Origin: Polaromonas sp. 39-63-25
Lineage (GTDB): Bacteria; Pseudomonadota; Gammaproteobacteria; Burkholderiales; Burkholderiaceae_C
Length of the DNA stretch: 64,000 nt
NCBI RefSeq assembly: GCF_002278925.1
Contig: NZ_NCJH01000017.1
Location: 19,335 to 83,334 of the forward strand
Reading direction: 5' to 3'
Shown here: positions 926 through 59,234 of the stretch, piece by piece
Position numbering within the stretch: the first letter of the stretch is position 1
Layout of the letters: every line of letters begins with the position of its first letter
Translations under genes and position numbers: made by a program
Notes under the pieces: generated by a model
What the model was told of the DNA's origin: nothing
Database searches by the model: none
What the model saw: the letters and a program-made list of their open reading frames with translations, nothing else

Positions 926-2526
926 AAGGTGTTGAGGACGACGTGCGCAGCGCCGGGCCGCCCCAAGCAAGCACAGCCCCCCCGGGGGGCAGCGTATTAC
1001 ACGAAGTGAAAAGCGTGGGGGTCAAAGCCTTCAGCGCCGGGCCGCCCCCAGCAAGCACCGCCCCTTCTTCCGGTGAAAGGGGCAGCGCAACGCCGCAGGC
1101 ACACGAAGTGAAAAGCGTGGGGGCCATCTCGCTCAGGCGCTACCTTCTCTTGGGCATCCTGCTGCCTGTGGGCCTGCTGGTCACGCTCAACACGGCCAGC
1201 CTGTACAGCCAGGCGCTGGGCGCCGTCAACACCGCCTATGACCGCACGCTGCTGGCCTCGGCCAAGTCGATCGGTGAGCAGCTGGACGTGAGCGGCTACG
1301 ACGGGCAGTCCGAACTGCGCGTGACCGTGCCGTATGCGGCGCTGGAAGCCTTCGAGGCCGACAACCAGAGCCGGCTTTTTTACCGGGTGTCCAGCCTCAA
1401 TGGCGAAATGGTGTCGGGTTATGCGCAGCTGCCTTTCTGGCGCGGCCGCATTCCGGCCAAACCGCCCTACGCGGCGTTGGTCGATTTTTACGACGATGTG
1501 TATGCGGGCGACGCCGTGCGGGTGGCCGTCCTGCTGCAGCCGGTGGCCAGCTCGAACGGGCGCGGTATGGCCGTCATCCAGGTAGCCGAAACACTGGAAC
1601 TGCGCACCACGCTGGCGCAAAAAATCCTGTTCGACACCCTGTGGCGCCAGGCGCTGCTGCTGGCCGTGATTGCCCTGGTGGCCGTGGTGGTGGTGCAGCG
1701 CGCCACGCGCCCGGTGCGTCGCCTCAGCGCCGAGCTGCAGGCGCGCCCCGAGGGCGACCTGACGGCGATTGCCGCACCGGACGCGCCACGCGAGCTGCTG
1801 CCGCTGGTTGACGCCACCAACGAGGTCATGGGCCGGCTGCAGCACCTGCTGGACAACCAGAAACGTTTTGTGCGCGACGCGGCGCACCAGCTGCGCACAC
1901 CGCTGGCGGTGTTGAAGGTACAGGTGCAGTCGGCGCTGCGCGGCGACATGGACGCCCAGGCGGCGCTGGCCGAGATCAACCAGACCGTGGACCGCGCCAC
2001 GCTGCTGGCCAACCAGATGCTGGCGCTGGCCAAGGTCGAGCAGTTGCGCCAGCAGGCGGACCTGGGGCCGGTGGACATGGACGCCATCGTGCGCGCCGTC
2101 GCGCTGGATCTGGCGCCGCTGATTGCCGAGAAGGACCTGGACTTCGATATCGAAACCACGGCAGCCAGCGTCAATGCGCATGAATGGATGCTGGGCGAAC
2201 TCTGCCGCAACCTGCTGCACAACGCGATCAAGCACAGCCAGCGCGGCGGCCCGCTGTCGGTGCGGCTCGTCACCGATGCCCGGTACCTGGCCCTGACCGT
2301 CAGCGACAGCGGTCCCGGCATTTCGGGCGAACTGGCAGCACGCCTTTACCAGCCCTTTTCGGCCGGCAATGTGCGCCACGGCTCGGGCCTGGGCCTGGCG
2401 ATCTGCCGCGAGATCACGCAGGCGCTCGGCGGCAGCATCACGCTGGAAAACCGCGAAGACCATGGGCGTATTGCCGGGCTGGACGCCACCGTGCGCCTGC
2501 CGCTGGTACACAATGACGGGCAATGA
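922..2526 (+). CDS. tctE: TctE-like sensor histidine kinase with a repeat-derived N-terminal extension
   Basis: Membrane sensor kinase of 534 residues. A first membrane helix (RRYLLLGILLPVGLLV, about residue 75) leads into a periplasmic 2CSK_N-type sensor region, a second helix (ALLLAVIALVAVVVV) and HAMP. The kinase core has the H-box FVRDAAHQLRTPLAVLK with phospho-accepting His at about 322, an N-box NLLHNAIKHS, and glycine boxes DSGPGI and GSGLGLAI. It overlaps the regulator gene by 4 bases. Residues about 10-68, before the first helix, are two tandem copies of a GC-rich interspersed repeat, giving APPGGSVLHEVKSVG and later HEVKSVG again. Without them the length is about 475, the usual size. 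The repeat portion should be cytoplasmic and is probably non-functional linker. Confidence 0.9.
   Translation: MKGVEDDVRSAGPPQASTAPPGGSVLHEVKSVGVKAFSAGPPPASTAPSSGERGSATPQAHEVKSVGAISLRRYLLLGILLPVGLLVTLNTASLYSQALGAVNTAYDRTLLASAKSIGEQLDVSGYDGQSELRVTVPYAALEAFEADNQSRLFYRVSSLNGEMVSGYAQLPFWRGRIPAKPPYAALVDFYDDVYAGDAVRVAVLLQPVASSNGRGMAVIQVAETLELRTTLAQKILFDTLWRQALLLAVIALVAVVVVQRATRPVRRLSAELQARPEGDLTAIAAPDAPRELLPLVDATNEVMGRLQHLLDNQKRFVRDAAHQLRTPLAVLKVQVQSALRGDMDAQAALAEINQTVDRATLLANQMLALAKVEQLRQQADLGPVDMDAIVRAVALDLAPLIAEKDLDFDIETTAASVNAHEWMLGELCRNLLHNAIKHSQRGGPLSVRLVTDARYLALTVSDSGPGISGELAARLYQPFSAGNVRHGSGLGLAICREITQALGGSITLENREDHGRIAGLDATVRLPLVHNDGQ
951..1023 (+). repeat. R1 GC-rich interspersed repeat, copy 1 (inside the sensor kinase gene)
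   Basis: Begins CGCCGGGCCGCCCC, has a central palindrome of C and G runs (CCCCCCCGGGGGG), and ends with the diagnostic tail GAAGTGAAAAGCGTGGGGG. It is read in frame as part of the kinase N-terminus. The same tail recurs at 1103-1123 and 43218-43235, and in diverged form at 59212-59232 and, inverted, at 49021-49048. Confidence 0.85.
1035..1125 (+). repeat. R1 GC-rich interspersed repeat, copy 2 (tandem, inside the sensor kinase gene)
   Basis: Second copy 11 bases after the first, same orientation and same reading frame. The ends match copy 1 (CGCCGGGCCGCCCC and GAAGTGAAAAGCGTGGGGG). The centre differs: CCCCTTCTTCCGGTGAAAGG replaces the plain C/G palindrome, so it is not a recent exact duplication. 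Confidence 0.85.
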
Positions 2527-11117: not shown

Positions 11118-12074
11118 TCAGCGGGCCGGCTCGGCGGCGTAGTGCAAATGCGCGCCGGCCCGCGTCACGTGGCCGTTGGCCACCTTCAGGTGAATCCTGT
11201 GGCCGCGTGTGGTGCAGGCCGCCACCTGCGCCAGCAATTGGTCGAGTTGCGCCGCGCTCGGTGTGGCCTGGTGGGCGTCAAGCAGCCAGTGGCGCAGTAC
11301 GTTGGCCTGGCGCGGGCCGGACAGGAGCTGCAGGGCCCTGATCTCGGGCGGGCTGCCGAGCAGCTGCAGGTCTTCGCGCGCCACCTCGAGCAACACCGCC
11401 TGCGCCTGCGCCGCATGCCGGGCACTGCGCGCAAAGGTCTCGCGGAACTGCGGGAAGGCCTGCGCCAGCGCCGGCAGCAGGCGCGCACGGATACGGTTGC
11501 GCGTGAAACGCTCGTCGGTGTTGCTCGGGTCCTCGATGAAGGCGGCACCGCGCCGCGCCAGCCAGGCGCGGATTTCGGGCGCCGGCACCTGCAGCAGGGG
11601 ACGGTGGTAGTCCAGGCCGTCCCGCTGCCAGCGGGCGGGCATGGCGCTCAGGCCGGGCAGCCCGGCACCGCGGCTCAGCGCCAGCAGGATGGTCTCGACC
11701 TGGTCGTCGGCATGCTGCGCAAGCGCTATGCTTTTGATAGCTGGCTGCGTCCACTCCTCATGCGCCAGAGCCCGAAATGCTTCATAACGCGCCTTGCGGG
11801 CGGCATCTTCCGGACTGTCGCCGGGCGCATGCCGGGCCATCACCCGCACGACCCGCAAGGGCACCTGCAGCTGCGCGCACACGGCTTCGCAGTGGCTCGC
11901 AAATCCGTCGGCAGCGGCCTGCAGGCCGTGGTGCACATGCACCGCCCTCACCTGCCCCGGCCACTTGTCGACGCAGGCCAGCAACAAGGCCGTGGAGTCG
12001 GCGCCGCCGCTGTAGGCCACGGCCAGAGGCAGTTGCGGCGAAAAGACGCGAATGGCGTCGTCGACGGTGGTCAT
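11118..12074 (-). CDS. tilS: tRNA(Ile)-lysidine synthetase with an in-frame R2 repeat
   Basis: 318 residues. The PP-loop ATP-binding motif is YSGGADSTALLL near residue 20. Further motifs are VHVHHGLQ, the AQHADDQVETILLALSRG segment, and RNRIRARLLPAL. TilS converts the wobble C of tRNA-Ile(CAU) to lysidine so that it reads AUA. The protein is much shorter than the E. coli enzyme and lacks most of the C-terminal domain, as is common in this order. Residues around EEWTQPAIKSIA, just before AQHADDQ, are encoded by an R2 repeat and replace a stretch that is normally Gly/Ala-rich. It starts 28 bases after accA. Confidence 0.93.
   Translation of the reverse strand: MTTVDDAIRVFSPQLPLAVAYSGGADSTALLLACVDKWPGQVRAVHVHHGLQAAADGFASHCEAVCAQLQVPLRVVRVMARHAPGDSPEDAARKARYEAFRALAHEEWTQPAIKSIALAQHADDQVETILLALSRGAGLPGLSAMPARWQRDGLDYHRPLLQVPAPEIRAWLARRGAAFIEDPSNTDERFTRNRIRARLLPALAQAFPQFRETFARSARHAAQAQAVLLEVAREDLQLLGSPPEIRALQLLSGPRQANVLRHWLLDAHQATPSAAQLDQLLAQVAACTTRGHRIHLKVANGHVTRAGAHLHYAAEPAR
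11725..11786 (+). repeat. R2 interspersed repeat, copy G (inside tilS)
   Basis: Carries GCTATGCTTTTGATAGCTGG, then CTGCG and a diverged right half ending AAATGCTTCATAA. The left half matches the copy after glyA at 27747 almost exactly. tilS reads the complementary strand, giving QPAIKSIA. Confidence 0.7.
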
Positions 12075-27746: not shown

Positions 27747-27810
27747 GCTATGCTTTTGATAGCTGCTTGCGCATGCCCTGTAAGGGCTGGATGCCAATAA
27801 TGCTTAAAAA
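27747..27810 (+). repeat. R2 interspersed repeat, copy C (between glyA and nrdR)
   Basis: GCTATGCTTTTGATAGCTGC, then TTGCGC, CTGTAAGGGCTGG and ATGCCAATAATGCTTAAAAA. This is a full-length intergenic copy and the best reference for the family in the window. The left arm GCTAT...ATAGC is an inverted repeat. Confidence 0.8.
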
Positions 27811-41625: not shown

Positions 41626-42831
41626 GTGAGCGACATCAGGATAGCCCGGCGCGCCCAGCGCATCGAACCCTTTTATGTAATGGAAGTTGCCAAGGCCGCG
41701 GCGGCCATGGCGCAGCAGCTTGCCCACACGGCAGAGCCCATGATTTTCCTGAACATCGGCGAGCCGGACTTCACCGCGCCGCCACTGGTCCAGCAGGCTG
41801 CGGCCCGCGTCATCCGGGACGGCAACACCCAGTACACCCAGGCGACCGGCCTGCAACCACTGCGCGAACGCATCAGCGACTGGTACGCCACGCGCTTCCA
41901 GGCCGACGTTGCGCCCGGCCGCATCATCATCACCGCCGGCGCCTCCGCGGCGCTGCAGTTGGCCTGCCTGGCCTTGATCGAAGCGGGCGACGAGATCCTG
42001 ATGCCCGACCCGAGTTATCCCTGCAACCGGCACTTTGTCAGCGCTGCCGACGGCAATGCGGTGCTGCTACCGACAACGGCTGAAGAGCGCTTCCAGCTCA
42101 GCAGCGCGAAAGTGCAGGCCGCCTGGACCGACAAGACCCGCGGTGTGCTGCTGGCCTCGCCGTCCAACCCGACCGGCACGTCGATTGCGCCGGAAGAATT
42201 GCGGCGCATCCACGAGTTTGTGCACAGCCGCGGCGGCATCACCCTGATTGACGAGATCTACCTGGGGCTGAGTTACGAGGCGCATTTTGGTCAGACAGCG
42301 CTGGCGATGGAAGGCGGACTCGGCGAGAGCATCATCAGCATCAACAGCTTCAGCAAGTACTTCAACATGACGGGCTGGCGCCTGGGTTGGCTGGTCGTGC
42401 CAGAGGCGCTGGCACCGGTGATCGAGCGCATTGCGCAGAACCTGTTCATCTGCCCCAGCACCGTGGCCCAGCACGCCGCCCTGGCCTGTTTTGAACCCGA
42501 TAGCCTGGCCGAGTACGAACGGCGCCGCGCCGAGTTCAAGGCCAGGCGCGACTACTTCATCCCCGAACTCAATCGCCTGGGGCTGACGGTGCCGGTGATG
42601 CCCGACGGTGCTTTCTACGCCTATGCCGACTGCACAGACGCCGCCGCCCGGCTGGGCGTCAGCGGCAGCTGGGACTTTTCTTTTGAGCTGATGAAACGTG
42701 CCCACCTGGCGGTGACCCCCGGGCGTGATTTCGGCACCATGGCGCCGGAGCAGTATGTCCGCTTCTCAACCGCCAATTCCATGGCGCAACTGAAAGAAGC
42801 GGTCGCCCGGCTGGAGGCCGTCCTTGGCTGA
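41626..42831 (+). CDS. Class I/II pyridoxal phosphate aminotransferase (AspC/DapC-like)
   Basis: 401 residues from a GTG at 41626, with GAGG upstream. Motifs are NIGEPDFTAPPLVQQAA, ITAGASAALQLACLAL, SNPTGT, the Asp-Tyr pair in IDEIYLGLSY, and the PLP lysine in SINSFSKYFNMTGWRLGW. It is likely an amino-acid or succinyldiaminopimelate aminotransferase; the substrate is not determined. It sits between nusB and ybgC and its stop overlaps the ybgC TTG start. Confidence 0.9.
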   Translation: MSDIRIARRAQRIEPFYVMEVAKAAAAMAQQLAHTAEPMIFLNIGEPDFTAPPLVQQAAARVIRDGNTQYTQATGLQPLRERISDWYATRFQADVAPGRIIITAGASAALQLACLALIEAGDEILMPDPSYPCNRHFVSAADGNAVLLPTTAEERFQLSSAKVQAAWTDKTRGVLLASPSNPTGTSIAPEELRRIHEFVHSRGGITLIDEIYLGLSYEAHFGQTALAMEGGLGESIISINSFSKYFNMTGWRLGWLVVPEALAPVIERIAQNLFICPSTVAQHAALACFEPDSLAEYERRRAEFKARRDYFIPELNRLGLTVPVMPDGAFYAYADCTDAAARLGVSGSWDFSFELMKRAHLAVTPGRDFGTMAPEQYVRFSTANSMAQLKEAVARLEAVLG

Positions 42832-43341
42832 GGCCACCCCATTCCAGTGGCCCTTGCGGGTCTATTGGGAAGACACCGACGCCGGCGGCATCGTGTTCTA
42901 CGCCAACTACCTGAAATTTTTTGAACGTTCACGCACCGAGTGGCTCAGATCACTGGGCATTGAGCAACACAGCCTGCGTGAGAGCACCGGCGGCATGTTC
43001 GTCGTGACGGAAACCAGTATTCGTTACCACCGGCCCGCGCGCCTCGACGATGAACTGATTGTTACCGCGACCCTGATCGAAAAAGGCCGGGCGTCACTGA
43101 TAATCCGACAGAGTACGCTATTAAAATCAGAGCATTCGGGTCTATCCGGTGAAAACCAATTTTCCGACGGGCCGCCCCTAGGAAAATTAGCCCCCTCGGG
43201 GGGCAGCGCATTACGCGAAGCGAAAAGCGTGGGGGCTGCATCGATCTGCGAGGGCACCATACGCATCGGCTGGGTCGATGCGGCCAGCCTGAAGCCCGCC
43301 AGAATTCCCGCCAACATCCTTGATCGTCTGGAAGTTAAAAC

Positions 43342-43345
<4 letters not shown>
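42824..43345 (+). CDS. ybgC: YbgC-type acyl-CoA thioesterase with an in-frame R1 repeat
   Basis: 173 residues from a TTG at 42824 with GGAGG 6 bases upstream. The hotdog fold has the active site YWEDTDAGGIVFYANYLKFF with catalytic Asp. After RASLIIRQSTLL the normal sequence is interrupted by about 35 residues (including GPPLGKLAPSGGSALREAK and SVGA) from an R1 repeat. The fold then resumes with CEGTIRIGWVDA. Without the insert the length is about 138, normal for YbgC. The insert falls between the last beta strands, where a loop may tolerate it. YbgC is the usual first gene of the tol-pal cluster. The stop overlaps the tolQ ATG. Confidence 0.9.
43166..43237 (+). repeat. R1 GC-rich interspersed repeat (inside ybgC)
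   Basis: Starts GACGGGCCGCCCC, has the C/G palindrome GCCCCCTCGGGGGGC and the tail GAAGCGAAAAGCGTGGGGGC. Same orientation and reading frame relative to the gene as both copies in the sensor kinase. Confidence 0.85.
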
Positions 43346-44034
<689 letters not shown>

Positions 44035-59113: not shown

Positions 59114-59168
59114 GCGCCACCCTTTCCCGGGGCGTTTTCAGTCAAGCAGGGGCCGCGGAACCGGCTCT

Positions 59169-59234
59169 GCCGGGCCGCAGGCGCAGCGCCCCCTCGGGGG
59201 GCAGCGGCTACACGCAGTGAGCAAGCGTGGGGGC
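59169..59234 (+). repeat. R1 GC-rich interspersed repeat (intergenic)
   Basis: GCCGGGCCGCAGGCGC, GCGCCCCCTCGGGGGGCAGC and the tail CAGTGAGCAAGCGTGGGGGC. It lies between the pseudouridine synthase and the convergent transglutaminase-like gene and abuts the latter's stop codon. This tail variant matches the inverted end at 49021-49048. Confidence 0.8.

Follow-up and report, generated by a model that had tools for sequence, protein, structure and literature searches.

Is the short repeat that lies in frame inside the ybgC gene of Polaromonas sp. 39-63-25 a genuine insertion and, if so, which element is it, why is it read in that frame, and how does it persist inside a core enzyme? The gene is located in a stretch of 64,000 nucleotides (the window, to which the coordinates below refer). 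A first-pass annotation of the window had noticed copies of a repeat, here designated R1, in ybgC and in a sensor kinase gene, all in the same orientation and frame.

An enlarged turn in the YbgC thioesterase

The ybgC gene is located between an aminotransferase gene and tolQ (Table 1), and its product matches the Pfam families 4HBT (3.6e-16) and, at residues 13-169, 4HBT_2 (1.1e-15). Where near relatives have the turn LLKSEH-GPV-LLCEG or a similar one, the YbgC of the window has LLKSEH-SGLSGEN-QFSDGPPLGKLAPSGGSALREAKSVGA-ASICEG, and the R1 copy is translated inside QFSDGPPLGKLAPSGGSALREAKSVGA. Thus, the reported presence of an in-frame repeat in a hotdog thioesterase is borne out. The estimate that about 35 residues were derived from R1 was correct in placing an insert in the fold but slightly generous, as ~26 codons are repeat-derived and ~8 further inserted residues (43134-43157) are not. 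The segment CTATTAAAATCAGAGC at 43118-43133 was considered as part of the insert and rejected, because it represents native ybgC codons that are also present in relatives without R1. The codons ahead of the loop (43100-43133) are AT-rich (ATA, CTA, TTA, AAA), the GC content of the window being 63%, and their DNA is much alike across the genus.

A four-residue segment of PDB chain 5v10 (105-108) corresponds in the alignment to 38 residues (100-137) of the YbgC of the window, which places the insert in a turn between strands, although the second aligned stretch is weak by itself (6.3 bits). On the basis of this alignment and of general knowledge of the fold, the insert probably forms a surface loop. 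An AlphaFold model of YbgC with the insert was set aside (pLDDT 33). A family search of 200 genomes, 184 of which matched, yielded 28 loci from other genera that were read, and four of these (L103, L109, L110, L112) have a long loop at the same turn, suggesting that this turn is permissive in general. The first-pass annotation had regarded an insertion at this place in genera lacking R1 as an argument against its reading; long loops do occur there but, judged by eye, they are not R1, and the R1 loop itself was seen within the genus of the window only.

Table 1. Coordinates of the features in the window
Feature	Position	Strand	Remarks	Support
R1 copy, sensor kinase	944..1022	+	N-terminal tail; ybgC frame	
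R1 copy, sensor kinase	1028..1124	+	Second, longer variant; tail; ybgC frame	
Aminotransferase gene	41626..42831	+	Upstream of ybgC	Tree marker
ybgC (acyl-CoA thioesterase, hotdog fold) with insert	42824..43345	+	173 aa; TTG start as listed	Pfam; PDB YbgC chains
Native AT-rich ybgC codons preceding the loop	43118..43133	+	Outside the insert	Present in relatives with and without R1
Enlarged loop, left non-repeat part	43134..43157	+		Resembles G265 counterpart (7/500 shuffles as good)
R1 copy in ybgC	43158..43236	+	Subfamily A; probable Beta-proteobacterial Repeat Element; 79 nt; in frame	
R1 hairpin 1	43158..43188	+	AATTTTCC / GGAAAATT	Family covariation
R1 hairpin 2	43190..43204	+	GCCCCC / GGGGGC	Double changes: none seen
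R1 hairpin 3	43207..43229	+		Family covariation
tolQ (MotA/TolQ/ExbB)	43342..44034	+	Immediately downstream of ybgC	Tree marker
R1 copy, subfamily B	59144..59234	+	Other left module, same right module	

The likeness of the ybgC repeat to other copies is not a matter of chance, since it is 85% identical over 71 nt to the copy at 951-1021, and a search of the genome to which the window belongs (4.83 Mb) with the R1 stretch gave 46 matches (E up to 1). The family is modular: subfamilies A and B have a common right half and different left halves. A left-half pattern detected copies in 59 of the 87 genomes of the genus. Scanning of named genomes yielded at least 117 stretches, 80 of which were used; this pattern required an exact left half and therefore missed truncated and subfamily-B copies. 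A looser pattern gave 70 places in the genome of the window, which include chance matches. For positions 42900-43400, no Rfam match was obtained at E up to 1. R1 very probably corresponds to the Beta-proteobacterial Repeat Element (BRE) described earlier, with which it was compared by its general features (see below). A second, AT-rich repeat, GCTATGCTTTTGATAGC, is present on the + strand in two identical copies (11725-11741 and 27747-27763).

The structure of the element was deduced from an alignment of 30 of the 35 distinct gapless copies of subfamily A, including the ybgC copy of the window; four copies with shifted right halves were left out by eye, and one was a near-duplicate. In this alignment, 96.7% of the hairpin cells pair. 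Double changes were found in 47 cells vs. 14.4 ± 3.2 after shuffling, a number reached in none of 500 shuffles, and all of them are in hairpins 1 and 3, whilst further pair types in the hairpins showed no excess (13 vs. 15.6 in shuffles). It is the covariation that carries the structural claim, since the folding energy by itself is unremarkable (z -1.14 for RNA and -1.67 for DNA).

Reading frames of intragenic copies

To explain the common frame, the first-pass annotation had offered two possibilities, i.e., that only this frame lacks stop codons or that the element is selected to be readable. Six-frame translation of the 30 aligned copies revealed stops in 0, 22, 0, 29, 0, and 1 of them in frames +0, +1, +2, -0, -1, and -2, respectively, where +0 is the ybgC frame. 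Thus, four frames are free of stops in 29 or all 30 of the copies, and the ybgC frame is not the sole stop-free one. In a sample of 93 copies drawn from 80 listed loci, 81, 50, 65, 42, 73, and 77 copies, in the same order of frames, were open over the element plus 2 nt per side; 35 of these copies, for which the right end was not found, were cut at a fixed length. As, in addition, no selection on the peptide sequence was seen (see below), the choice between the two possibilities was too narrow.

Of 64 candidate ORFs picked regardless of frame, 60 were given to Pfam (two each from L151 and L197 were left out). Two-sided or within-domain support was obtained for 18 of 36 ORFs with the repeat in +0 or -2 and for none of 24 in the other four frames (Fisher p 1e-5). 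When copies were grouped into sites, all 12 supported sites were in +0 or -2 (p 2e-5 relative to the openness of the frames and 2.4e-4 relative to four frames of equal weight), the grouping and the sorting into internal and terminal copies being done by eye from the Pfam ranges. The nine internal copies in +0 are found in threonine synthase (L149), acyl-CoA synthetases (L152, L159, L161), GcvP (L181, L214), YbgC (L200), UvrA (L207), and DUF2126 (L217), and the nine in -2 in CobQ (L153, L189, L210, L215, L225), FdhD (L169), 5'-nucleotidase (L191), GH94 (L193), and a NusB domain (L158, the weakest case); L158 and L193 stem from the P2-4 assembly, which is seemingly error-rich. Terminal-only copies were kept out of the test, five of them in +0 or -2 (L157, L156, L173, L176, L211) and two in +2 (L188 and, weakly, L155). 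Codon-bias scoring of the R1 context was abandoned in favor of Pfam, as it was too noisy and missed ybgC itself.

In the genome of the window, R1 was found in +0 in ybgC, the kinase gene (two copies in the N-terminal tail), and the genes for a LMW phosphatase (with a domain match only left of the repeat), allophanate hydrolase, and PriA, and in -2 in those for CobQ and FemAB (two copies). These nine copies fit the two-frame rule, and there are two atypical exceptions, PutA (+1) and AraC, where an extra base changes the frame inside the repeat. The tally, for which 30 of 55 candidate ORFs were given to Pfam, is not frame-neutral, because additional ORFs in the ybgC frame passed the candidate rule. 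Domain matches on one side of the repeat were further seen in ABC transporters L009 and L095, MatE L082, and aspartyl protease L075; these were not counted, as translation may start only beyond the repeat. A spread of intragenic copies over all frames, which would have spoken against the first-pass reading, was therefore not encountered: apart from PutA and AraC, the copies occupy two frames, one per strand, as in the 93-copy sample. In the FemAB-like gene (L014), the two copies are tandem subfamily-B copies, in frame on the opposite strand. In cobQ, R1 occurs in the same place, right after MSNNARVV, in six loci, Hydrogenophaga and Polaromonas among them (L008, L153, L189, L210, L215, L225), in a probably conserved stretch; perhaps, this is one insertion common to different genera.

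The two kinase copies (Table 1) were correctly described as having the orientation and frame of the ybgC copy. The kinase has the Pfam domains 2CSK_N and HisKA. Its start codon overlaps the stop codon of the response regulator gene (ATGA), and in five matching relatives out of six searched the tail contains 0, 0, 1, 2, and 1 in-frame copies; together, these observations place the repeats in the coding N-terminal tail. The tail (923-1124 in the window; L266-L271) thus has zero, one or two in-frame copies, depending on the species.

The peptides encoded in the two frames used are near neutral, their mean net charge being 0.4 and -0.6 vs. 6.7 and 6.5 in the other two open frames. The frame bias may thus reflect survivorship, insertions that give very basic or hydrophobic peptides being purged. 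Alternatively, a preference of insertion for a codon phase would yield the same two frames, since the third codon positions of +0 and -2 coincide.

Scattered presence and sequence conservation of the ybgC insert

Among 87 genomes of the genus searched, 82 had a ybgC match, and R1 is present at the ybgC site in seven of these, i.e., the genome of the window (G000) and G265, G034, G139, G244, G270, and G256. In 49 of the 82, ybgC was read as DNA, and in the others the absence of an insert was judged from the limits of the match, which ended at residue 98-110. The loop of G275 (L134) may be a decayed remnant of R1. An assembly artefact is unlikely in G139, which is a single-contig genome. G256, which is probably Polaromonas sp. 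P2-4 and has a copy identical to one in L187, has a broken ybgC frame and a shortened aminotransferase, and errors of assembly are suggested by this. G244 does not differ from Polaromonas sp. CF318 (L200) in the stretch compared, and the two were therefore counted as one. In G034, a second R1 copy (C51:59311-59389 of that genome, L032) ends 1 nt before the start of the YbgC match, ~330 nt upstream of the intragenic copy.

A tree was built from 54 rows and 1689 columns of the aminotransferase, tolQ, and ybgC minus its loop. On this tree, the presence of R1 requires seven changes, and a single R1-containing clade is rejected (p-AU 4e-38). R1-containing genomes have near relatives without R1; for example, L031 and L033 are 96% identical, and L033 has the native loop. 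By eye, the junctions are alike in all seven genomes. The inserts are of two subtypes, GAC..TAGG and GCC..AAGG. Left of R1, the loop is similar among the five genomes other than G000 and G265 (in nine of ten pairs 0-29 of 500 shuffles were as good; in L132-L133, 81 of 500) and also between G000 and G265 (Table 1), and no clear similarity was found between these two sets; the 21 flank comparisons in all were uncorrected for their number. One or two origins of the ybgC copy combined with repeated loss fit these data best.

The encoded peptide is under no detectable selection at the protein level. In the ybgC insert, the numbers of variable columns at codon positions 1, 2, and 3 are 3, 12, and 2 (2, 7, and 2 without G270) in a set of seven rows, in which L200 and L132 are identical and G256 was left out. 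In 34 copies outside ybgC, position 2 of the ybgC frame is also the most variable (mean entropy 0.31/0.62/0.29). Pairwise codon differences amount to 128 non-synonymous and 17 synonymous ones in the ybgC insert and to 85 and 24 in the cobQ insert, vs. 256 and 446 in the cobQ flanks. This pattern indicates that R1 is not conserved as a peptide.

The DNA, in contrast, is conserved. Whilst the ybgC flanks of R1-containing genomes are under purifying selection (dN/dS 0.07-0.16, six pairs), the dS of the insert is 0-0.05 (0 or 1 change per ~21 synonymous sites) vs. 0.48-0.99 in the flanks (six pairs). Over all 80 sites, the divergence of the insert among G000, G265, G034, G139, and G244 is 9-10% in G034-G139 and G034-G244 and 2.5-6% in the remaining eight of the ten pairs; pairs that include G270 diverge by 9-16%. 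In cobQ, insert dS is 0-0.05 vs. 0.52-0.62 in the flanks within Hydrogenophaga and 0.09-0.33 vs. 0.37-1.06 in the other rows; in one pair of acyl-CoA synthetases it is 0.38 vs. 0.58. The latter two comparisons indicate that strong conservation of the insert is not general. A comparison of GcvP flanks was out of register and was not used. The copy in the ybgC of G270 is decaying, and each of two strict patterns finds one other copy in that genome. The copy in the ybgC of G244/CF318 is identical to that in the threonine synthase gene of another genome, down to a variant that a single one of 34 non-ybgC copies has; this identity suggests that R1 was recently copied from one gene to another.

We consider it likely that an in-frame BRE is tolerated in a permissive turn of YbgC, has repeatedly been lost and is conserved as DNA. 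According to this explanation, R1 is a non-autonomous three-hairpin repeat of ~79 nt; some of the Polaromonas species would descend from an ancestor in which a copy entered the permissive inter-strand turn of YbgC, where it was tolerated because it is a harmless in-frame insertion with a small, near-neutral, and stop-free peptide. YbgC with the insert would still work, and the scattered presence would result from an old insertion, with perhaps two origins (G000/G265 and the other five), followed by repeated loss confined to the loop. As erosion of the element would be expected, the low insert dS counts against an old insertion followed by drift, and our preferred guess is that, in ybgC, the DNA or RNA of the element itself is constrained. 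The further proposal that BRE/R1 is a functional element at the nucleic-acid level, e.g., a binding or processing site that needs a trans-acting host factor, and lodges in genes since two frames, one per strand, give inert, near-neutral peptides, is speculative and rather unlikely. In its favor, the ybgC insert is ~8- to 20-fold less diverged than neighboring synonymous sites (less so with G270), the peptide is unconstrained, and the copy decays in G270, a genome nearly without other copies by the strict patterns; however, the acyl-CoA synthetase pair, which lacks such conservation, weakens it.

The low divergence could also mean that the loop is a hot spot where each R1-containing lineage recently gained a fresh copy. 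Such recurrent insertion would agree with the scattered presence next to R1-lacking relatives and with the two subtypes, and other genomes have copies outside ybgC that resemble the ybgC copies as closely (minimum 2-4 differences) as the ybgC orthologues do. Nevertheless, this explanation appears doubtful, if conceivable, given the same junctions by eye in seven genomes, the similar left loop in five of them, and the 2-8 nt by which the ybgC copies of five genomes differ mutually vs. a median of 8 among 19 non-ybgC copies. Gene conversion from R1 copies of the same genome might keep the ybgC copy young as well, and the low insert dS in ybgC and in the cobQ of Hydrogenophaga and the decay in G270 are consistent with it. 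It is quite unlikely, however, as the ybgC copy of each of the five genomes compared is nearer to a ybgC copy from another species (2-4 differences) than to the nearest own copy compared (4-11 differences; G034 entered with six of its 18 own copies, and G256 and G270 were left out).

Spreading of R1 by homologous recombination between ybgC alleles is very unlikely. Pairs of R1-containing genomes do share single variants near the loop against their sisters, in one clade 18 nt to the left and in another 28 nt to the left and 3 nt to the right of the loop anchors, but both clades have sites that split by species no farther than 8-30 nt from these anchors (197 nt on the right-hand side if L033 is represented by L139). 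The distances were measured from anchors at the loop edges and not from R1. Any exchanged tract would, therefore, be short. Moreover, sites that follow R1 status are not denser near the loop, and longer tracts common to R1-containing genomes were looked for without result. Selection of the R1 peptide as a useful segment of YbgC and other proteins, finally, is highly improbable: the ybgC frame is open in six of the seven genomes and the insertions affect core enzymes in mostly two frames, as such a role might require, but the codon differences in ybgC and cobQ and the presence of R1-lacking near relatives argue against it.

R1 among known palindromic elements

R1 is a known but hardly studied repeat, its insertion in ybgC is genuine, and its behavior resembles that of palindromic elements found in frame in other bacteria. 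Two of its features are uncommon, i.e., the use of mostly two frames and, in ybgC, conservation of the DNA without conservation of the peptide. Palindromic insertions in frame, as described for Rickettsia and several further groups, are hereby documented also for free-living Burkholderiales, where they affect the core enzymes YbgC, threonine synthase, GcvP, acyl-CoA synthetases, CobQ, UvrA, PriA, and FdhD. The neutral charge in two frames provides a testable rule for insertions that survive, and the paradox in ybgC points to a constraint on a repeat to which its describers assigned no function.

In the accessible part of its description, BRE is 75-91 bp in full length, has 29 copies in Polaromonas JS666, and occurs in Bordetella, Polaromonas, Rhodoferax, Delftia, and others, in tandem arrays and with some copies wholly inside coding sequences (Hot et al., 2011; PMC3110155); that part proposes no function and contains no analysis of the reading frame, structure or evolution of intragenic copies (PMC3110155). 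R1 agrees with BRE in size, host range, tandem arrangement, and the location of some copies in genes. Its unit measures 79 nt, and 54 of the 58 copies with both ends found in the 93-copy sample measure 74-82 nt. Among the matches listed, it is found mostly in Polaromonas and also in Rhodoferax, Hydrogenophaga, Achromobacter, Bordetella genomosp. 5, and others. It forms triplets at a spacing of 74-76 nt (L197) or 80-81 nt (L151), and some copies lie wholly inside coding sequences. The papers listed in searches on in-frame palindromic elements deal with RPE, REP, and MITEs, and no study of intragenic BRE is among those listed.

As far as the accessible parts of the cited papers go, the closest parallels are as follows. 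Like R1, Rickettsia palindromic elements (RPE) are inserted in frame in conserved genes (PMC10969869; PMC2229807), and a guanylate kinase bearing an RPE was reported to be translated and active (PMC2229807). However, RPE are ~150 bp and form a long stem-loop with terminal inverted repeats, whereas R1 has 79 nt and three successive hairpins. REP are likewise short palindromic repeats, some of which lie wholly in ORFs in several species (PMC3733652), but the end tag GTAG or CGTC described for REP/RAYT is absent from R1, the family of which ends in AATTTTCC and GTGGGGGC. Within 1.5 kb of the one PF01797 (RAYT-like) match in the genome of the window (L061, 1501-1827), no R1 motif was found. The ERIC/RU, YPAL, and Correia MITEs resemble R1 in being non-autonomous and in forming in-frame gene fusions in more than one frame (PMC2229807; PMC2759123). 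Terminal inverted repeats and target-site duplication are features of MITEs; by eye, the ends of R1 in the family alignment are not inverted repeats of each other. RU elements were reported to lie outside the conserved domains of superfamily members (PMC2759123), whereas R1 copies do lie inside such domains.
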